A stretch of DNA of 64,000 nucleotides from Arthrobacter echini (GTDB taxonomy: Bacteria > Actinomycetota > Actinomycetes > Actinomycetales > Micrococcaceae). Below are positions 28,732-38,833 of this stretch, in pieces. The first letter of the stretch is position 1; each line of letters starts with the position of its first letter. Under the pieces are notes generated by a model, which searched no databases, was not told where the DNA came from, and saw only the letters and a program-made list of their open reading frames with translations. The DNA is taken from positions 372,001 to 436,000 of the forward strand of contig NZ_SSWH01000001.1 of NCBI RefSeq assembly GCF_004803505.1, given 5' to 3'. The translations under genes were made by a program, and so were the position numbers.

Positions 28732-30171
28732 TCACAGCCCCAGTGCCGGTACGGGCAGTCCGAATTCGCGCTCGAGTGCCAGCCGCGCGGCATTCAGCCC
28801 GGCCATCCCGTGCACGCCGGGTCCGGGCGGCGTCGATTGCGAACAGAGGTAGACACCCGGTAACGGGGTTGCCCACGGTTGCAGCGAGGGCACTGGCCTG
28901 GCGATGATCTGCCGCAGGTTCACCGCTCCACTGCTGAAGTCCCCACCCACGTAGTTCGCGTCGTAGGCCTCGAGTCCGGCGGCGGTCAGCGTGTGGGTGC
29001 GCACGACGACGTCCCGGAAACCGGGGGCGAATCTCTCGATCTGCGCCGTGACGGCCTCCGCCATGTCACGGGTGGAGCCGCGCGGCACATGGCAGTAGGT
29101 CCACAGGATGTGACGTCCCTCGGGCGCACGGGTCGGATCGAACGTCGAGGGCTGGGACAGCAGGACGTAGGGGCTCGACGGGTGCTCGCCCCGTCTGACC
29201 TGCCGCTCCCCGACGGCGATCTCCTCGCGCGTGCCGCCGAGGTGGGCCGTGCCGGCGCGGTGCAGTTCCGGGTGTGCCCAGGGCACCGGCCCGGACAGGA
29301 TGAAGTCCACCTTGCAGGCCGCATTGCCGTAGGTGAAGGCGGACAGGGCCCTCTCGTAGGCTGCCGGCAACCGCCCTCGGGACATGGCCTGGAACGTCCT
29401 GGGAGCAACATCCAGAAGTACCACCCGGGCACCGGAGACCTCCGCGAGGGTGTCGATGCGGCTGTCGGTGATGATGCGCCCATCGTGCTGCCGCAGGTCG
29501 AGGGCCAGGGCTTCGGCGATGGACTGGGAGCCTCCGACCGGAATCGGCCACCCCACCGTGTGCGCGAGAAGATGCAGGACCAGCCCCGCACCGGCGCCGG
29601 CGAGCGAGGGAAGAGTTCCCACGGGGTGAGCCATGACGCCCGTGAGCAGTGCTCTGGCTTCGTCGGTGCTGAACCGCCTGTTCCACCAGGGCAGTCCCTG
29701 CTCCAGCACGGCGAGCGCGAACCGCACGGCGGCTTCCGGCCTGCGGGGAAACCGGAGCACGTGATGCAGGGCGAAGTCCAGGACGTCCTGGTCCCGATCG
29801 CTCAGGGGCTGCAGGAGACGGCGGTAGGCCTCGCCGTCGACGCCGAGTCCGGCGACCGTCCGTTCCATGCTGCGGTACGCGACCCCGGCCCGTCCGCCGT
29901 CGAGCGGATGGGCGAACGACACCTCGGGAACGGCGAATCCGATGCGCCGGGAGAGTTGGAAGTCCCGGAAGAACGGGGATGCCAGCGCCATGGGATGAAC
30001 AGCGGAACCGACGTCGTGGACGTGGTCCTGCTCCATGAGCTCGCGGGTTCGTGTCCCACCGCCGATCGTCGGACCGGCCTCGCGCACGCGGACGCTCAAG
30101 CCGGCACGGGCCATGACGACCGCCGCTGCAAGGCCGTTCGGGCCCGCCCCGACCACTTCGACGTCGATCAC
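28732..30171 (-). CDS. CrtI/PYROXD2-like FAD-dependent oxidoreductase
   Basis: 479 residues from GTG 30171, preceded by GGGAGGTGG and overlapping the Fem-type gene by 4 bases (GTGA). The N-terminal dinucleotide fold is VEVVGAGPNGLAAAVVMARAG…VREA. The C-terminal motif PGVYLCSQSTPPGPGVHGMAGLNAARLAL is typical of phytoene-desaturase-like proteins. The substrate is not predictable; no carotenoid synthesis gene (crtB, crtE) is nearby. Longer in-frame starts upstream would run through the neighbouring gene. Confidence 0.88.
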   Translation of the reverse strand: MIDVEVVGAGPNGLAAAVVMARAGLSVRVREAGPTIGGGTRTRELMEQDHVHDVGSAVHPMALASPFFRDFQLSRRIGFAVPEVSFAHPLDGGRAGVAYRSMERTVAGLGVDGEAYRRLLQPLSDRDQDVLDFALHHVLRFPRRPEAAVRFALAVLEQGLPWWNRRFSTDEARALLTGVMAHPVGTLPSLAGAGAGLVLHLLAHTVGWPIPVGGSQSIAEALALDLRQHDGRIITDSRIDTLAEVSGARVVLLDVAPRTFQAMSRGRLPAAYERALSAFTYGNAACKVDFILSGPVPWAHPELHRAGTAHLGGTREEIAVGERQVRRGEHPSSPYVLLSQPSTFDPTRAPEGRHILWTYCHVPRGSTRDMAEAVTAQIERFAPGFRDVVVRTHTLTAAGLEAYDANYVGGDFSSGAVNLRQIIARPVPSLQPWATPLPGVYLCSQSTPPGPGVHGMAGLNAARLALEREFGLPVPALGL

Positions 30172-31265
30172 GGGCCACCTCCCGATCCGCGTCGCTCCTG
30201 GAGTTGCTTCAGGGCGGACATGCCGCGCTGCCGGGCCGACCCTGCCGCTGCAGCCGCCGACCGGCGGGCACGCAGCACACCAGCGACAATTGCGTACCGC
30301 CTCCGGCGGAGGGGGATGTCGTACGTCGTCGGTACCACCACCACGTCCCTGGAGAAATTCCGCTTGAAGGTGGTGACATTGGCCAGCTCCGGATAGTTCT
30401 CGCTGACGATACCGGTCAGTCCGCACGCGGTATTGCCTGCCTCCCTGAGCACGCGGAATGCCTCCCACAACAGCAGGTACGGAGCGAAGAGCCGGCGGGC
30501 CTGGTGCGTGCTGCCCGCGAAGTAGTACACCGAATAGCCCCTGTACTCCGTGGTGATGAGCCAGCTGAGCGGTTCACCGTCCCGGTAGGCGACGAGCATC
30601 CTCAGGTGGTCGCCGAGCACGTTCAGCAGCGTCTCGTAGTACGACGAGTCGAAGGACTGGAAGCCGTCCCGCTCAGCCGTTTCACGCATGATCGGGAAGA
30701 GCTCAGCAACGAACACCGAGTTCCATTCCGTACGCGGAATATGCCGCACCTCGACTCCATTGCGCTGCGCGCGCCGGATGCTGTTGCGTGCATTGGGCCT
30801 GAAGCTCTTCAGGAGTTCGGCCTCGGACATGGCGAGGTCGACGACGATCTCCCGCTCGTACCACCCGTGCTCGATCGGACCGGTGGCTGGGAACTGCGGG
30901 GTCGCGACCTGCATGCGGACATAGAGCGGATCCACGGACCGGTGGTCGTCGAACTGGTCACGCACGGTTTCCATCAGCACGCGTTCGGCAGCAGGCGTGC
31001 GCTCCGCGAACCAGACGGGCCCGTTGACCACCACGACGGATTCGCGCAGACGCCTCCGCACCTGGACGAAGCTCGCCGTGGCGATCAGCACCCCGCTGCT
31101 GTCCGTGTAGGCCCAGATACCGAGCGCCGCGCGCCCGAGTGCCTGCTCGAAGAGGACCCACGCCGGCGTCTGCTCGATCGGGATCCTCACCTCGGGGTGG
31201 GCTGCCGCGATCGCCTCGAAGCCGTCGTCGTCGAGCAGGGTGTAGGTCAGAGGTTCTGCACTCAC
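30168..31265 (-). CDS. FemA/FemX-family peptidoglycan bridge aminoacyltransferase
   Basis: 365 residues from GTG 31265 behind GGAAGAG; an ATG at 31310 is a poorer alternative. Two GNAT-like subdomains: IPIEQTPAWVLFEQALGR, then VVDLAMSEAELLKSFRPNARNSIRRAQRNGVEV, which is the family's signature region, then YSVYYFAGSTHQARRLFAPYLLLWEAFR. The C-terminus is basic and Ala/Arg-rich. Fem enzymes add amino acids from aminoacyl-tRNA to lipid II to build the interpeptide bridge. Which amino acid cannot be told. Co-transcribed with the CrtI-like oxidoreductase. Confidence 0.88.
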   Translation of the reverse strand: MSAEPLTYTLLDDDGFEAIAAAHPEVRIPIEQTPAWVLFEQALGRAALGIWAYTDSSGVLIATASFVQVRRRLRESVVVVNGPVWFAERTPAAERVLMETVRDQFDDHRSVDPLYVRMQVATPQFPATGPIEHGWYEREIVVDLAMSEAELLKSFRPNARNSIRRAQRNGVEVRHIPRTEWNSVFVAELFPIMRETAERDGFQSFDSSYYETLLNVLGDHLRMLVAYRDGEPLSWLITTEYRGYSVYYFAGSTHQARRLFAPYLLLWEAFRVLREAGNTACGLTGIVSENYPELANVTTFKRNFSRDVVVVPTTYDIPLRRRRYAIVAGVLRARRSAAAAAGSARQRGMSALKQLQERRGSGGGP

Positions 31266-31653
31266 TGATTCTCTTCCGCTGGTCTTCACATGTGCCGCCG
31301 CTCGCTCCACCCGGGTTCACCGGCCCTCACGTGGATGTGGACGCCCCGAGTGCCTTGTGCGACGGGTCTTCCACGGCCCTGCCAGCCTAGCGGGTGCCCC
31401 GGCACAGCTCGGAGCCTGATTCCGGGCTCCTGACCGCTCCGCTGCGGCTGCACGGCCGACGGAGGTCACGAGCGCTGATGATGACCCATGGTCAGTCTCC
31501 CGAGTGGGCACCACCGCCGGCGCGGCCAGGGCGCGCGGGGAATACGCACGCTGCCATGCGCGCTGCGAACTGAACGTAGACTTGTAGTTCCCGCCGCCCC
31601 TATTCCTGGGAAATGCCGACGGGCGCATACTCAACTGGCTTTCGAGGAGAACT
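31266..31653. promoter_or_regulatory. Divergent intergenic region between fem-type gene and ino1
   Basis: 388 bases without a credible gene, holding the promoters of both divergent genes. A TAGACT hexamer at 31577–31582 could be a -10 for ino1, giving a leader of about 65–70 bases, but no good -35 is visible. Nothing else stands out. Confidence 0.35.
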
Positions 31654-32739
31654 GTGGGACAGAACCCCATTCGCGTGGCAATCATTGGAGTCGGCAACTG
31701 TGCCGCGTCGCTCGTACAGGGTGTGCACTACTATCGTGATGCCGATCCCACGGGTTCCATCCCGGGTCTGATGCATGTCGAGTTCGGCAAGTACCACGTG
31801 GGCGACGTCGAGTTCGTCGCCGCGTTCGACGTCGACGGCAAGAAGGTGGGCCACGACCTCGCGGAAGCCATCGGCGCCAGCGAGAACAACACCATCAAGA
31901 TCGTCGACGTCCCGCCCACCGGCGTCATCGTCCAGCGCGGCCACACCCTCGACGGCCTGGGCAAGTACTACCGCGAGACCATCGTCGAGTCGGACGAGGA
32001 GCCCGTCGACATCGTCGCCCAGCTCAAGGATTCCAGAGCCGATGTCCTCGTCTGCTACCTGCCCGTCGGCTCGGAGCACGCCGCCAAGTACTACGCACAG
32101 TGCGCCATCGATGCAGGGGTCGCATTCGTCAACGCTCTTCCCGTCTTCATCGCCGGGACGAAGGAGTGGGCGGACAAGTTCACCGAGGCCGGCGTCCCGA
32201 TCGTCGGTGACGACATCAAGAGCCAGATCGGCGCGACGATCACCCACCGGGTCATGGCGAAGCTGTTCGAGGATCGCGGCGTCACCCTGGATCGCACGTA
32301 CCAGCTCAATGTGGGCGGCAACATGGACTTCAAGAACATGCTCGAGCGCGATCGCCTCGAATCCAAGAAGGTCTCCAAGACGCAGGCCGTGACCTCCAAT
32401 GTGAAAGCCGAGCTGCACGCCGACGACGTCCATATCGGCCCCTCGGACTACGTGGCCTGGCTCGACGACCGGAAGTGGGCCTTCGTACGCCTGGAAGGAC
32501 GCAACTTCGGGGATGCTCCGGTCTCGCTGGAGTACAAGCTCGAGGTGTGGGACTCGCCCAACTCCGCCGGAGTCATCATCGACGCCATCCGCGCAGCGAA
32601 GATCGCCCTTGATCGCGGCATCGGCGGACCGATCCTTTCCGCCTCCAGCTACTTCATGAAGTCGCCGCCGGAGCAGTACGCGGACGATATCGCCCATGAG
32701 AGGGTCGAGGCGTTCATCCGCGGCGAGCTCGACCGCTAA
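31654..32739 (+). CDS. ino1: Inositol-3-phosphate synthase
   Basis: 361 residues from GTG 31654 behind CGAGGAGA. Actinobacterial-type myo-inositol-1-phosphate synthase: NAD-binding start [19 protein letters not shown], then [41 protein letters not shown], and [26 protein letters not shown] near the active site with its lysines. Converts glucose-6-phosphate to inositol-1-phosphate, which MshA uses as acceptor in mycothiol synthesis and which also feeds phosphatidylinositol. mshA is 2.6 kb away. Confidence 0.96.
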
Positions 32740-32814: not shown

Positions 32815-34482
32815 CTAGAACAGACCGACCGCCTGCCCGTCGGCGTCGACGTCCATCCGCAGCGCGGCGGGTTCCTTCGGCAGCCCCGGCATGGTCATCA
32901 CCGCGCCGGTCGTCACGACGACGAAGCCCGCTCCGGTCCTGATGACGAGATCCCTGACGTGGAGGTCGAACCCCGTCGGGGCCCCGAGCAGCGTCGGATC
33001 GTCCGAGAACGAGTACTGCGTCTTCGCCATGCACACCGGCAGCGCATCCCAGCCATTGGCCCTGATCTCCGCCAGTCGCCGCAGGGCGGCGGCGGAGAAG
33101 TCGACGTTGCCGGCCCCGTAGATCTCACGGGCGATGGTGCGGATCTTGTCCTCCACGGGCAGCTCGAGCGGGTACAGGTGCGAGAAGTCCACCGGTCGGT
33201 CCAGGGCTGCGAGGACCTTCGCCGCGAGTTCGTCGCCGCCGGGCCCCCCTCCGCCCTGACCCCACACGTCGGCCACTGCGGCGTCGATCCCCTCGGTCCG
33301 GCACCAGCCCAGCAGCCAGTCCAGTTCCTCCTCGGAGTCCGTGCCGAACTGATTGACGGCCACGACCGGCGAGAGACCGAACTTCTCGATGTTCCGGACG
33401 TGCCGGAGCAGATTCGCCGTTCCTGCGGCGACCGCCTCCACGTTCGACGCGGCCAGCTCGGTCTTCGCGACGCCCCCGTGCATCTTCAGCGCGCGGATGG
33501 TGGCCACGATGACGACGGCGCCGGGTGCGAAGCCTGCAGCACGCGCCTTGATGTCGAGGAACTTCTCGGCGCCCAGATCCGCGCCGAAACCCGCCTCGGT
33601 CACCACGATGTCCGCCAGCTGCCGGGCCGTGCGCGTCGCGATCACCGAGTTGCAGCCGTGGGCGATGTTGGCGAACGGGCCCCCGTGGACCAGCGCGGGG
33701 GTCCCGGCGATGGTCTGGACGAGATTCGGCTTGATGGCGTCCTTGAGCAGCAGGGTCAGCGCCCCTTCGACGCCGAGATCGCGCACGGTCAGGGGAGTGC
33801 GCTCGTAGGTGTAGCCGAACGTGATGTTGCCGAGCCGTTCCCTCAGGTCGTCGAGATCCTGGGCCAGACAGAAGACCGCCATGACCTCGGAGGCCACCGT
33901 GATGTCGAAGCCGTCCTGGCGTGGGGTTCCCTCCGTGGGGCCGCCGAGGCCGATGACCACCTCGCGCAGCGCCCGGTCGTTGACGTCGAGGACCCGCTTG
34001 AACGTGACGCGTCTCGGATCGATGCCGAGGATGTTGCCCTGGTGGATGTGGTTGTCGATCAGTGCCGCCAGGGCGTTGTTCGCCGCCGTGATGGCGTGGA
34101 AGTCACCCGTGAAGTGCAGATTGATCTCGTCCATGGGCAGCACCTGGGAGTACCCGCCTCCCGTGGCACCGCCCTTCATGCCGAGCACCGGCCCGAGGGA
34201 CGGCTCGCGGAGGGCGATCATGACCCGCTGACCCGCCCGGGCCAGGGAATCGGCCAGTCCCACCGTGCACGTGGACTTGCCCTCGCCTGCAGGGGTGGGA
34301 CTCATCGCGCTGACGAGTACCACCTGGCCCGGGACGCCGTCGTCCTCGGGTAGCAGGCGCGGGTCGATCTTCGCCTTGTAGCGTCCGTGGAACTCGACGG
34401 CTTCCCGCGGGATGCCCGCGGCGTCGGCGATGTCCTCGATGGGCCTGACCGCAGCGCTGCGGGCAATCTCAAGATCGCTCAT
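32815..34482 (-). CDS. fhs: Formate–tetrahydrofolate ligase
   Basis: 555 residues, normal length. ATP site [19 protein letters not shown]; formate/folate motifs [30 protein letters not shown] (split as two adjacent blocks) and [17 protein letters not shown]. The C-terminal [12 protein letters not shown] is conserved. Makes 10-formyl-tetrahydrofolate from formate, ATP and tetrahydrofolate, linking to the one-carbon pool also supplied by the glycine cleavage system. Single gene, convergent with ino1. Confidence 0.97.
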
Positions 34483-34507
34483 GGGCCCAACCTATCAGTG
34501 GCCCGGC

Positions 34508-35278
34508 TCACACCGGAGGCATCCCCGCCCGTGTCAGGACGTAGTCGATCAGGGGCCCGTACAATCCTGGCGGAACGTTGTCGTCCAGTGGCACGGCGAC
34601 CTCCAGTTGCCCCTGGGCCTCGGCGACGAACAGACCGGGATCGTTGCAGTCCGCGAAGCCGATGGTTCGAAGGCCCGAGCTCGCCGCCTGCCCCGCCCAG
34701 CCATGATCGGCCACCACGAGATCCGGCGGAGCGAGTCCGTCGTCGGCCAGGGTCTGAAGGCTCAGCCGCATCGGCGCGGGGAAGTGCGTGTGCATCAGGC
34801 CACCGTGCTGGTGCCAGACCAGGACGCCGAAGATCTGGCGGATGTCCCCCTCGCCGAACGGTCGGCCCTCGGGTACCTCCACCACCGTGGCGCCGGCTGC
34901 CGCAGCAGAACGCGCGAAGGCTGCGTGGACGGGCAGCAGACCGGCAGGATGCCCCGTCGCGAAGAGGATGCGCTCGCTTCTGCTCACCGCGGCACCGAGG
35001 ACGTCGGCGAACCGGTCGAGCGATGCAACACACTTCGCTGCATCGATGGTGTCCTGGCCCCGGACATGGGCACGATCGGGATCGATTCCCACCCGGTCGT
35101 GCATGAGGTCGAAGACGTCGTCGTAGCTCCACTCGCGCGTACGGGTGACGCCGAACTCGAGGTGCTCGTTGCCCTCGAGGAAGAGGTGCATGTGCCTCAG
35201 GTTGTCCTGGCGTGGTGTGGCGACGTCTCCGGTGATGCGCACGGAATCGAGGTATTCGGCCAGCTCGGTGGGAAGCAC
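34508..35278 (-). CDS. Conserved actinobacterial phosphatase-like protein
   Basis: 256 residues. I recognise it as a Micrococcaceae/actinobacterial family usually labelled only phosphatase. Visible features: DLMHDRVGIDPDRAHVRG near the N-terminus, RSERILFATGHPAGLLPVHAAFARSA, a His pair in VWHQHGGLMHTHFPAPM, and VVADHGWAGQAASSGLRTIGFADCNDPGL, whose DHGW/DCND residues could bind metal or phosphate. It is 28 bases upstream of mshA's 3' end on the same strand, i.e. immediately downstream of mshA. This makes it a candidate for the unassigned GlcNAc-Ins-phosphate phosphatase of mycothiol synthesis; inference. Confidence 0.7.
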   Translation of the reverse strand: MLPTELAEYLDSVRITGDVATPRQDNLRHMHLFLEGNEHLEFGVTRTREWSYDDVFDLMHDRVGIDPDRAHVRGQDTIDAAKCVASLDRFADVLGAAVSRSERILFATGHPAGLLPVHAAFARSAAAAGATVVEVPEGRPFGEGDIRQIFGVLVWHQHGGLMHTHFPAPMRLSLQTLADDGLAPPDLVVADHGWAGQAASSGLRTIGFADCNDPGLFVAEAQGQLEVAVPLDDNVPPGLYGPLIDYVLTRAGMPPV

Positions 35279-35306
35279 GGTCCTATCCTACGGCGCGGGA
35301 AGGGCC

Positions 35307-36554
35307 CTACTTCGGGGTCCCGATGGGGAAGTGCTCGACAGCCTTCCGGTAACTCTGGGCCGTGAGCAGCGCCGTGCGCTGCCAGCCGAAACCGAGTGCG
35401 TGGAGGGCTGCACCCCTGCCGAGGCAGGCGCGCAGGGCCTCGTCGTCGTGCAGTCCCTCGAGAGCACGCGCCCAGGCAGCGGGGCTGTGCCCGTCCACGA
35501 GGAGACCACTGCGTCCGTCGCTGACGGCCTGGGGCAGGCCGCCCACGTTGGCCGCGACCACCGGGGTACCGCAGGCCTGCGCCTCGAGCGCCACCAGCCC
35601 GAACGACTCGCTGAAGGACGGCATGACGACGGCGTCCGCGGCCCTGAACCACTGGGCCAGATGTGCCGCGGTCACCGGCGGATAGAGCCGCACGGTCTCC
35701 CCGAGGCCGGCGTCGTCGATGAGGGGCTGGAGCGCGAACAGCTCGGACCCGCTGCCGGAGCCGAGAATGCTGACGACCAGTGGGATGTCGGGTCGACGCG
35801 AGCGCAGTTCGGCTGCCGCCGACACCAGCACCTGCGGACCCTTGAGTTTCTGGATCCTGCCGGCGAAGACCACATGGAACTGCTCGGGTGGAAAGGCCAG
35901 GGACGCGCGCGCTGCACGCCGGTCGCCCGGGTGGAACGTGGCGAGATCGACTCCCGGGGCGACCACGTCGATGCGTCCCGGGTCGGCACCGTAGAGCGAG
36001 ACGAGTTCGGTGGCTTCGGTACTCGTGTTCGCCAGGAGCCGTGTCGAGCCGACCACGATGGACTGCTCGCCGGTGATCCTGTCGGCGGGTTCGGGCGAAC
36101 TGATCGTCCTCATGCGCAGATTCTTGACCTTGGCCATGGTGTGCATGGAGTGCACGAGCGGCAGGTCGAGTTTCCTGCTCAGGTTCAGCCCCACGGCACC
36201 GGAGACCCAGTAGTGGGAGTGCAGCACATCGAAGTGACCGTCCGCGCGCAGTCCCGCGGTATCGGCGATGGCGTCGGCGAAAATCTCCGCCAGCCCGGGC
36301 AGAGCTTCCTTCGGGATGGGCCGGGGCGGGCCTGCATCGAGGTGATGCACCAGCACGCCGTCCTGCAGGATCTCCCGGCGTGGCCGTCCTTCACCGACGC
36401 CCCGCGTGAAGATCTCCACCTCGACGCCCGCCCTCGCCAGTTCCAGCGCTGTACTTCTGACGTAGACGTTCATCCCACCGGCGTCACCCCTGCCGGGCTG
36501 CTCCAGGGGCGAGGAATGAAGGGACAGCATGGCCACGCGCCTGACGCCGGTCAC
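35307..36554 (-). CDS. mshA: D-inositol-3-phosphate glycosyltransferase MshA
   Basis: 415 residues from GTG 36554 behind GGAAGGGAGA. GT4-family fold: N-terminal loop GRGDAGGMNVYVRSTALELARAGVEVEIFTR, LLHSHYWVSG-like VLHSHYWVSGAVG, then VVFAGRIQKLKGPQVLV and the donor site PSFSESFGLVALEAQACGTPVVAANVGGLP with the E-x7-E pattern. Couples UDP-GlcNAc to inositol-1-phosphate, the first step of mycothiol synthesis. Flanked by two phosphatase-like genes. Confidence 0.96.
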   Translation of the reverse strand: MTGVRRVAMLSLHSSPLEQPGRGDAGGMNVYVRSTALELARAGVEVEIFTRGVGEGRPRREILQDGVLVHHLDAGPPRPIPKEALPGLAEIFADAIADTAGLRADGHFDVLHSHYWVSGAVGLNLSRKLDLPLVHSMHTMAKVKNLRMRTISSPEPADRITGEQSIVVGSTRLLANTSTEATELVSLYGADPGRIDVVAPGVDLATFHPGDRRAARASLAFPPEQFHVVFAGRIQKLKGPQVLVSAAAELRSRRPDIPLVVSILGSGSGSELFALQPLIDDAGLGETVRLYPPVTAAHLAQWFRAADAVVMPSFSESFGLVALEAQACGTPVVAANVGGLPQAVSDGRSGLLVDGHSPAAWARALEGLHDDEALRACLGRGAALHALGFGWQRTALLTAQSYRKAVEHFPIGTPK

Positions 36555-36740
36555 ACCCTCTCCCTTCCGACCGGCTGTGGGATCTGTGCCGTTCGATAGT
36601 CCACCCCGACACTACAACGCCGTACTGCCGGCTCTCATTCCGGTATCGGATTCCGGCACGGACAGGCGCGCCGGTACCGTGCCGCAAGGGAAGCGACCCA
36701 CGAATCGTGCCGTGGGTCGCTCAGTACGCGGGTGTTGGTC

Positions 36741-37391
36741 CTAGAGGTTCCAGTGCACGATCGCGGGCGTGCGCTTGTCCCAGCCGAGTGCGCAGACGGC
36801 AGCCGTACCCAGGACGAACCGACGTCCCTCGATCCCGCCGAACTGCAGCCAGCGGGCGGAGAGAACCCTGAGGAAATGACCGTGTGCCACGAGCAGCGCG
36901 TTCTGTACGGGGGTGGCATCGGAATCGCGGTCCGCCGGTGTTCCGCATCCGGCCTGGACACGTGCGATCACGCGGTCCGCCCGCTCCGAGACCTGATCCA
37001 GCGTCTCGCCGTTCGGGACGCCGTCGTTCCAGATCAGGTAGCCCGGGTTCTCTTCCCGCACCGTCGCGCTGTTGCGGCCCTCGTTGTCCCCGTAGTCCCA
37101 CTCGTGGGCGTACGGCAGCACCTCGGCGTCGGGGAATCCGGCGAGCTCGGCGGTGCGCACCGCGCGCTGCAGGGGCGAGGTGAGCACGAGATCGAAGTCG
37201 ACGCCCTCGAGGTGCTCGCGGGCCGCCAATGCCTGCTTCTCGCCGTTCTCGGTGAGTGCGAGGTCGGTGAGACCCGTGTAGCGACCGTCCCTGGACCACT
37301 CGGTCTCTCCGTGCCGGAGCAGCCACAGCCGGGGAAGAGGTGTTCCGGCCGGGGTCAGATCCGGTGCTGCTGCACCTGACAAAGGTCTCAT
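36741..37391 (-). CDS. Histidine phosphatase (phosphoglycerate-mutase-like) family protein
   Basis: 216 residues from ATG 37391 behind AAGGAGAG, overlapping pcnB by 4 bases. Catalytic RHG motif LLRHGETEWSRDGRYTG, TSPLQRAVRTAEL, the proton-donor region HEWDYGDNEGR and second His in LLVAHGHFLRVL. Acts on a small phosphorylated substrate; specificity unknown. It lies 186 bases upstream of mshA on the same strand. A phosphoglycerate mutase-like gene also lies near mshA in mycobacteria, so a link to mycothiol synthesis is possible. Confidence 0.88.
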   Translation of the reverse strand: MRPLSGAAAPDLTPAGTPLPRLWLLRHGETEWSRDGRYTGLTDLALTENGEKQALAAREHLEGVDFDLVLTSPLQRAVRTAELAGFPDAEVLPYAHEWDYGDNEGRNSATVREENPGYLIWNDGVPNGETLDQVSERADRVIARVQAGCGTPADRDSDATPVQNALLVAHGHFLRVLSARWLQFGGIEGRRFVLGTAAVCALGWDKRTPAIVHWNL

Positions 37392-38833
37392 TGCGTACTC
37401 TCCTTGGATTCGGGCTGCTCGCGCCACCAGGAGCGAAGCATGGTTTCGGCCTCGGCGTGGCTCAGCGGCCCGTGCTCCATGCGCTCCTCGAGGAGGAAGC
37501 GATAGGCACGTCCCACCACGGGGCCCGGGGATATCCCGAGCAGGGCCATGATCTGCTCACCGTCGAGATCAGGGCGGATCGACGCGAGTTCTTCCTGCTC
37601 CGCCAGCGCACTGATCCGTGCCTCGAGATCATCGTAGGCGAAGGCCAGCCGCTCGGCCTTGCGCCGGTTCCGCGTGGTGACATCGGAGCGCGTGAGCCGG
37701 TGCAGCCGCTCGAGGAGGGGACCGGCGTCGCTCACGTACCGCCTGACGGCCGAGTCGCTCCAGCCCGCCTCGCCGTATCCGTAGAACCGCATGTGCAGCT
37801 CCACCAGGCGCGCAACGGCCTTGACGGTGTCGTTGTCGAAACGCAGTGCGCGCAGTCGCTTCGCTGCCAGCTTCGCTCCGACCGTGTCGTGATGGCGGAA
37901 AGTGACAGCGCCGCCGGGTTCGAACTTCCGGGTGGCCGGTTTCCCGATGTCGTGGAGGAGGGCCGCCAGACGCAGGACGACGTCGGGCCCGGGAACGGGG
38001 CCGTCCTCGCCCGTCTCCAGCTCGCACGCCTGACGCAGCACGGTCAGCGAGTGCTGGTAGACGTCCTTGTGCCGATGGTGCTCATCCGTCTCGAGGCGTA
38101 GCGCCGCCACCTCCGGCAGCACATGATCGGCAAGGCCTGTCGCGACCATGAGATCCATCCCGGCGTCGGGCGCCCTGCCGCGAAGGAGCTTCACCAGCTC
38201 ATCGCGCACCCGTTCGGCCGAGATGATGGAGATGCGCCCGGCCATGTCCGTCATGGCCTCCGAGACCTCGGGGGCCACGCTCACACCCAGCTGGGAGACG
38301 AAGCGTGCGGCGCGCATCATGCGCAGCGGGTCGTCGGAGAACGACGACGACGGCGTCCCGGGTGTCCGCAGGAATCCTCCGTGGAGATCCCGCACGCCCC
38401 CGAACGGATCGACGAGTTCGAGGGACGGGAGCCTCAGTGCCATGGCGTTGATCGTGAAGTCGCGGCGCAGCAGATCGTCCTCGAGACTCGTTCCGAAGGC
38501 GACCGTCGGGTTCCTGGACCCGGGATCGTAGGCCTCTGCGCGGTAGGTGGTGATCTCGATCTGGTATCCCATCCTGCGAAGACCGATCGTTCCGAATGCG
38601 CGTCCGATCTCCCAGTAGGCGTCCGCCCACCCCTTGATGACGGCGACGGTCTGATCCGGGTCGGCGTCCGTGGTGAAGTCGAGATCGGGTGAGACCCTAC
38701 CGAGGAACAGATCCCGAACCGGTCCGCCGACGAGGGAGAGGTCATGGCCGGCGGCATTGAAGAGTTCGCCGACCTCGAGGACCACGGGAGGCAGGGAAGC
38801 GGTGAATGAGGACGTGTCCGAAAGGCGCGACAT
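37388..38833 (-). CDS. pcnB: CCA tRNA nucleotidyltransferase / poly(A) polymerase family
   Basis: 481 residues. Nucleotidyltransferase head with LVGGPVRDLFLGRVSPDLDFTTDA (the GG and DxD motifs) and the RRDFTINAMAL block, then a C-terminal HD domain (RLAALLHDIGKPATRKF…FRHHDTVGA). The HD domain is usual in bacterial CCA-adding enzymes of this type. Maintains the 3' CCA end of tRNAs. Divergent from the NUDIX gene, as in mycobacteria (pcnB / mutT4). Confidence 0.95.
   Translation of the reverse strand: MSRLSDTSSFTASLPPVVLEVGELFNAAGHDLSLVGGPVRDLFLGRVSPDLDFTTDADPDQTVAVIKGWADAYWEIGRAFGTIGLRRMGYQIEITTYRAEAYDPGSRNPTVAFGTSLEDDLLRRDFTINAMALRLPSLELVDPFGGVRDLHGGFLRTPGTPSSSFSDDPLRMMRAARFVSQLGVSVAPEVSEAMTDMAGRISIISAERVRDELVKLLRGRAPDAGMDLMVATGLADHVLPEVAALRLETDEHHRHKDVYQHSLTVLRQACELETGEDGPVPGPDVVLRLAALLHDIGKPATRKFEPGGAVTFRHHDTVGAKLAAKRLRALRFDNDTVKAVARLVELHMRFYGYGEAGWSDSAVRRYVSDAGPLLERLHRLTRSDVTTRNRRKAERLAFAYDDLEARISALAEQEELASIRPDLDGEQIMALLGISPGPVVGRAYRFLLEERMEHGPLSHAEAETMLRSWWREQPESKESTQ

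Follow-up and report, generated by a model that had tools for sequence, protein, structure and literature searches.

The locus studied here raises the question of which enzyme removes the phosphate from N-acetylglucosamine-inositol-phosphate (GlcNAc-Ins-P), the product of the glycosyltransferase MshA in mycothiol synthesis. It lies in a 64,000-nucleotide stretch of the Arthrobacter echini genome (contig NZ_SSWH01000001.1, positions 372,001 to 436,000; hereafter the window), in which mshA stands between a histidine phosphatase gene on its 5' side and a gene of the Pfam family PF15698 (PHOS hereafter) on its 3' side. A phosphatase for this step goes by the name MshA2 in the accessible text of PMC2628429, PMC4360819, PMC10826361 and PMC9736012, and PMC10893638, likewise as far as accessible, uses MshA2 as a gene name. 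We found no locus for it in the partly accessible literature searched, which left most subscription journals outside. The available part of PMC2834668 states that the pathway still lacks a predicted phosphatase, in agreement with the initial annotation of this DNA, which had treated the step as lacking an assigned gene and put forward both neighbours of mshA as candidates. Our analysis shows that PHOS is the better of the two and a lineage-bound partner of mshA, and that it is not a general mycothiol phosphatase.

We compared the locus across a family sample of 100 genomes from 32 genera, a phylum sample of 396 genomes and 80 named loci. The family sample, labelled f1, was taken as Micrococcaceae because the tree shows named Micrococcaceae loci (Haematomicrobium sanguinis, Rothia kristinae) that are identical to f1 genomes. 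In all 18 Micrococcaceae genomes that could be assessed, PHOS was located directly 3' of mshA; in the nineteenth carrier of PF15698, G475 (locus L061), the contig ends. In 15 of the 19 carriers, 42-165 bases separate PHOS from the listed mshA match, which is on the same strand, and the maps of three further stretches place mshA immediately upstream of PHOS. The same order was seen in 22 of the 23 Micrococcaceae among the named loci, some of which are the same genomes as in the preceding count, and the 23rd is cut by a contig end. Upstream of the pair lies a cca unit in seven stretches (the window among them), a presumed tsaD-type cluster in eight, another arrangement in two and a contig end in one. 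Because the adjacency is complete across at least three settings, we consider the pairing of PHOS with mshA to be real and beyond chance. In 20 loci of genomes that lack PHOS, the gene 3' of mshA varies.

Table 1 Features of the mshA locus in the window (positions are those of the window)
Feature	Position	Strand	Basis
cca, CCA tRNA nucleotidyltransferase	37388..38833	-	TIGR02692, 724 bits (cutoff 438.8)
Histidine phosphatase	36741..37391	-	PF00300, 149.4 bits (cutoff 21.7)
13-bp stem-loop without T run, between histidine phosphatase and mshA	36691..36722	-	Predicted fold of a 71-nt RNA (z-score -3.46); missed by terminator scan
mshA, D-inositol-3-phosphate glycosyltransferase, GTG start	35307..36554	-	TIGR03449, 488.3 bits (curated cutoff 462.5)
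Candidate leaderless promoter of PHOS: -10-like hexamer TAGGAT, 6 nt ahead of the GTG start	35285..35290	-	Read in sequence
PHOS, PF15698 'Phosphatase', 256 aa	34508..35278	-	Pfam, 312.8 bits (gathering cutoff 28.4)
-10-like hexamer TAGGTT, 6 nt ahead of the ATG of fhs	34489..34494	-	Read in sequence; same placing in 7/12 Arthrobacter loci
fhs, formate-tetrahydrofolate ligase, next gene 3' of PHOS	32815..34482	-	PF01268, 841.6 bits
ino1, inositol-3-phosphate synthase	31654..32739	+	TIGR03450, 686.4 bits (cutoff 638)

In the window (Table 1), the minus strand carries cca, the histidine phosphatase gene, mshA, PHOS and fhs in this order, and ino1 follows beyond fhs on the plus strand. The gene positions, the gaps of 28 bases between the mshA stop and PHOS and of 186 bases between the histidine phosphatase gene and the mshA start, and the proximity of ino1, all reported in the initial annotation, were borne out by coordinates and profile scores. 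Both mshA and ino1 pass curated mycothiol models (TIGR03449, TIGR03450), and the closest named relatives of the locus are Arthrobacter of the agilis/echini/bussei group. The proximity of ino1 in many of the loci fits a reading in which PHOS acts on inositol-1-phosphate, the substrate of MshA, and so limits or balances mycothiol synthesis; bacteria would tolerate losing a gene of this kind. Given that ino1 lies on the opposite strand, and that none was seen near PHOS in the Rothia loci, we regard this as quite improbable. Farther downstream on the minus strand (window 28732-31310) lie two more genes, one flavin amine-oxidase-like and one FemAB-like.

How much the adjacency says about function depends on its history. 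In the tree (from which one short row was dropped), the Micrococcaceae PHOS sequences form one clade with moderate support (87/94), beside Brevibacterium. With one origin and few rearrangements, the complete adjacency is weaker evidence than its count suggests, and the single clade is also what would be expected if PHOS acted on a substrate unrelated to mycothiol and lay beside mshA as the inherited remnant of a single ancestral event. To this second reading we assign nearly even chances. It has to accommodate that the adjacency outlasted changes of context in seven genera, in a position where the 20 loci without PHOS carry varying genes, and that an association with mshA remains across the phylum.

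In the phylum sample, PF15698 was detected in 94 genomes (a match below the curated cutoff had been dropped before counting), strong mshA in 150, both in 68 and an MshC-like gene in 92; fragmented genomes may be miscounted in these numbers. Strong mshA refers to places listed down to 346.5 bits, below which weaker relatives exist, for example in three genomes of the lineage f18 and in Brevibacterium. Since the MshC profile also picks up CysS in distant genomes, 340 bits was set as a working line. Strong mshA was present in 68 of the 94 genomes with PF15698 versus 82 of the 302 without (not corrected for kinship). Co-occurrence, which the initial annotation had named as a check on the idea, holds as an association; the presence of the family in many genomes without mshA, which it had named as refuting the idea, was found in part, with 26 of the 94 lacking strong mshA. 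Of the same-contig pairs of PF15698 and mshA, 27 of 28 are within 21 kb of each other with several genes intervening, a count that leaves out the genome of the window (71 bases) and five Streptomyces-like genomes (f5; 0.4-0.9 Mb). As an observation on mshA itself, 62 of the 150 genomes with strong mshA have no MshC-like gene at the 340-bit line, and PF15698 is present in 35 of these 62; in such genomes, MshA may serve another product.

Several of these distributions weigh against a role of PHOS in mycothiol synthesis. Besides the 26 genomes with PF15698 and no strong mshA, which favor an unrelated substrate, the lineage f18 carries PF15698 in 16 of 38 genomes, none of them with strong mshA or an MshC-like gene; 13 of the 16 show no mshA match better than 1e-36, and the other three have weaker relatives (E 1e-77 to 1e-96). 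In the five Streptomyces-like genomes that have both genes on a single contig, even the closest copy of PF15698 is as far from mshA as stated above. In Brevibacterium, no mshA was seen beside PHOS in the stretches searched from 10 of 10 genomes. All ten have mshC over the cutoff and an mshA relative below it; one locus (L159) shows a 57-bit mshA match 4.6 kb from PHOS, and in one complete chromosome (L150) the two are ~1.16 Mb apart. Linkage to mshA, as expected of a lineage-specific enzyme, is thus found in Micrococcaceae and not in Brevibacterium or Streptomyces. In six of the ten Brevibacterium genomes, PF15698 lies 25-56 kb from mshC on the same contig, which in a single genus perhaps reflects synteny alone.

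The neighbors of PF15698 elsewhere are different ones, a further point in favor of an unrelated substrate: a deacetylase-type gene, and in f18 an enoyl-CoA hydratase gene. A second PF15698 subfamily was observed beside or near the deacetylase-type gene (cluster c3, of which one member was tested and assigned to PF00850) in several lineages, namely at the first copy of Streptomyces-like genomes (three loci), at two further loci and at other loci of the phylum sample. The neighbors of the second Streptomyces copy are presumably speB, tesB and an acyl-CoA carboxylase gene; like tsaD, proC, PAC2 and UppP, these are presumptive labels given from the sequences.

Within the family, the distribution of PHOS is narrower than that of mshC. 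PF15698 is present in 19 of 100 genomes (7 of 32 genera) and mshC over the cutoff in 100 of 100, which leaves 81 genomes with mshC and without PF15698; mshA was listed at E 1e-100 in 77. Hence, PHOS is not a general mycothiol phosphatase. The phylum sample concurs, with PF15698 in 33 of the 88 genomes where strong mshA and an MshC-like gene occur together, and so does the control genome of Corynebacterium glutamicum, which has mshA and mshC and in which no PF15698 was found. PHOS is also absent from one family member (G426) whose gene order is otherwise that of the window. These absences add to the case against a role in mycothiol synthesis. When PHOS is mapped as present or absent onto a tree of mshC from 37 family members, four changes are needed; the backbone of this tree is weakly supported.

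The step may be performed mainly by a phosphatase encoded elsewhere, possibly redundantly, for example a HAD hydrolase encoded beside mshC, a histidine phosphatase of the MSMEG_4193 type or an inositol monophosphatase. We hold this to be slightly better than an even bet, and it is compatible with either view of the PHOS substrate, so that these likelihoods overlap. Close to mshC, a HAD hydrolase gene was found in 10 of the 19 family loci with PHOS and in 9 of the 11 without it, this genome included (L207:7310-8002), and its best NCBIfam match is a sugar phosphatase, under the cutoff (74.4 vs 282). At E 1e-30, the MSMEG_4193-type model TIGR03848 has matches in 63 of the 100 genomes of the family sample, 59 of them over the cutoff. 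Neither of the two tracks mshC completely. According to the accessible part of PMC2834668, impC has been considered for GlcNAc-Ins-P, and mycothiol was no different in inositol monophosphatase mutants, which argues against that enzyme class. That the HAD gene strictly complements PHOS is unsupported by the above counts, and TIGR03848 as a complementary replacement was rejected in view of its count given above and because the genome of the window has both. The HAD gene near mshC recurs in some other families too and is another candidate phosphatase in its own right. Because lineages with mshC differ in the candidate phosphatases they carry, the hunt for one universal mycothiol phosphatase may fail.

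The histidine phosphatase upstream of mshA, the second candidate of the initial annotation, did not hold up. Its position 186 bases from mshA on the same strand invites the view that it performs the step, as do its relatives, which include acid phosphatases without an established specific substrate. The protein belongs to branch 1 of the histidine phosphatase superfamily (PF00300 over the cutoff; RHG motif, LLRHGETEW in the translation) and misses the curated cutoff of the acid phosphatase model NF009993 (167.5 vs 226). However, its ATG (37391) overlaps the cca stop (37390-37388) as ATGA, and we therefore assign it to the cca unit; the ATGA start recurs in 12 of 12 named Arthrobacter loci. The histidine phosphatase and cca clusters each occur in 9 of 79 mapped stretches, always side by side, and the former in 7 of the 19 PHOS-carrying stretches. 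Across the 12 Arthrobacter loci it lies between 0.1 and 2.3 kb from mshA, and a tblastn search of the Rothia, Kocuria and Haematomicrobium loci gave no match to it. In the window, a stem-loop additionally separates it from mshA (Table 1). Poorly linked to mshA and traveling with cca, the histidine phosphatase was rejected as the mycothiol phosphatase; we consider such a role hardly credible. PHOS, being the better linked of the two, retains the preference already given to it in the initial annotation.

Tight linkage had been the reason for that preference. The adjacency itself stands, as described above; taken as a sign of co-expression with mshA, tight linkage is an overstatement, given that PHOS has a promoter-like element of its own in Arthrobacter. 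A -10 hexamer 6-7 bases before the start codon is typical of leaderless actinobacterial genes. All 12 named Arthrobacter loci, and the window too, have a TANNNT element 12-13 bases ahead of the start codon of PHOS, although much of the surrounding sequence differs. The same placing was found before mshA in 0/12, cca in 0/12, ino1 in 0/11 and the histidine phosphatase gene in 0/12 loci (at the ATG or an upstream GTG), and at 0.5% of all ATG/GTG triplets in the Arthrobacter loci. The element also precedes PHOS in three of three Kocuria loci; it was found in none of six Rothia loci, nor in the Haematomicrobium locus. A scan of the locus for sigma-70 promoters and terminators found nothing, and the -10 element and the stem-loop came from reading the sequence and from separate computations. 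The conserved element suggests that PHOS in Arthrobacter is probably transcribed on its own and perhaps additionally together with mshA. Its own element weakens the operon argument, and it suits an unrelated substrate as well.

The PHOS protein itself has enzyme-like features. PF15698 matches it over its full length (residues 6-252), as it does all 30 aligned relatives. For this family, 'phosphatase' is here a family name only; we found neither an assay nor a mention of the accession in the literature searched, with the same restriction on subscription journals. An alignment of 30 diverse members shows 20 invariant residues, including T108, H110, P111, H163, H165, D191, H192, G193, D210, D213, D232 and D233. 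Five motifs were defined in this analysis and not by Pfam (TGHP, HTH, DHG, DxND and DD), all present in PHOS and invariant or nearly so in alignments of 30 and 46 sequences. In a structural model, most of the invariant residues of the motifs are found where strands 103-107, 187-191, 205-209 and 227-230 end on their C-terminal side, or after that point. This arrangement suggests that the conserved aspartates and histidines belong to an active site, which would probably be metal-dependent.

The model, predicted with AlphaFold2 from 46 rows, reached a mean predicted local distance difference test (pLDDT) score of 96.9 and a predicted template modelling (pTM) score of 0.94. A sequence search of the PDB had revealed no clear relative of known structure. 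With the model as query, the best 50 of 772 Foldseek matches and the best 50 of 826 VIA-align matches were all the ribosomal protein uS2 or chains of ribosome entries (Foldseek E from 6e-5; VIA-align Z up to 12.8, root-mean-square deviation 3.0 over 171 residues). No phosphatase was among these best 50 of either search, which speaks against a phosphatase as far as these top matches go, and a viral fold library gave no match at E <= 0.001.

From these observations, we propose the following explanation, which we advance tentatively and rate as a whole at somewhat below even. PHOS would be a hydrolase of PF15698, probably metal-dependent and built on the uS2 alpha/beta fold, that joined mshA once, in an ancestor of the Micrococcaceae, stayed with it through changes of setting and was then lost several times. 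It would remove the phosphate from GlcNAc-Ins-P, or from inositol phosphates of the surrounding pool, and would be a lineage-specific enzyme that is replaceable or dispensable, while other phosphatases would perform the step in other lineages. Taken alone, activity of PHOS on GlcNAc-Ins-P or on the adjoining inositol phosphate falls somewhat short of an even chance and is about as likely as an unrelated substrate. The finding of a conserved, mshA-linked candidate phosphatase in genera that are harmless and can be cultured renders this step of mycothiol synthesis directly testable.

Three known systems invite comparison. The nearest solved structure to the histidine phosphatase is 2a6p (E 1.6e-35), named by its depositors as a possible phosphoglycerate mutase GPM2; we take it to be Rv3214 of Mycobacterium tuberculosis, an acid phosphatase of the GPM2 type being the known system it resembles. 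PHOS resembles the postulated MshA2 in that its gene directly follows mshA in Micrococcaceae. However, MshA2 is defined by an activity, and PHOS does not generally co-occur with mshA and mshC; a universal MshA2 would be present wherever the mycothiol genes are, and PHOS is not.

With uS2 (PF00318), PHOS shares the predicted fold. At the sequence level, PHOS residues 72-107 align with a uS2 segment in hhalign (E 5.4e-4, probability 30%), 15 other families reaching E 0.025 or worse. Because the control comparison of uS2 with the phosphosugar-binding SIS domain (PF01380) already reaches E 0.0018, this signal alone is weak, and since uS2 also scores against SIS and mshA (E 0.0055), a shared nucleotide-binding-like fold explains part of it. 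The comparison of PHOS with the SIS domain (hhalign E 0.085) did no better than controls and lends no clear support to a kinship. PHOS remains below membership in the uS2 family (Pfam Ribosomal_S2 E 0.36 at best, in 1 of 30 members), and a PDB profile search ranked a uS2 (E 0.15) below three chains of a single unrelated protein (E 0.11). It seems unlikely, though conceivable, that PF15698 arose from uS2 or shares an ancestor with it and supplies the mycothiol phosphatase step in Micrococcaceae, hydrolyzing GlcNAc-Ins-P beside MshA, with related sugar-inositol or other phosphates as substrates elsewhere. In contrast to uS2, which is a part of the ribosome, PHOS would be a free-standing enzyme, and an enzyme-like family on the uS2 fold would be of interest for protein evolution.

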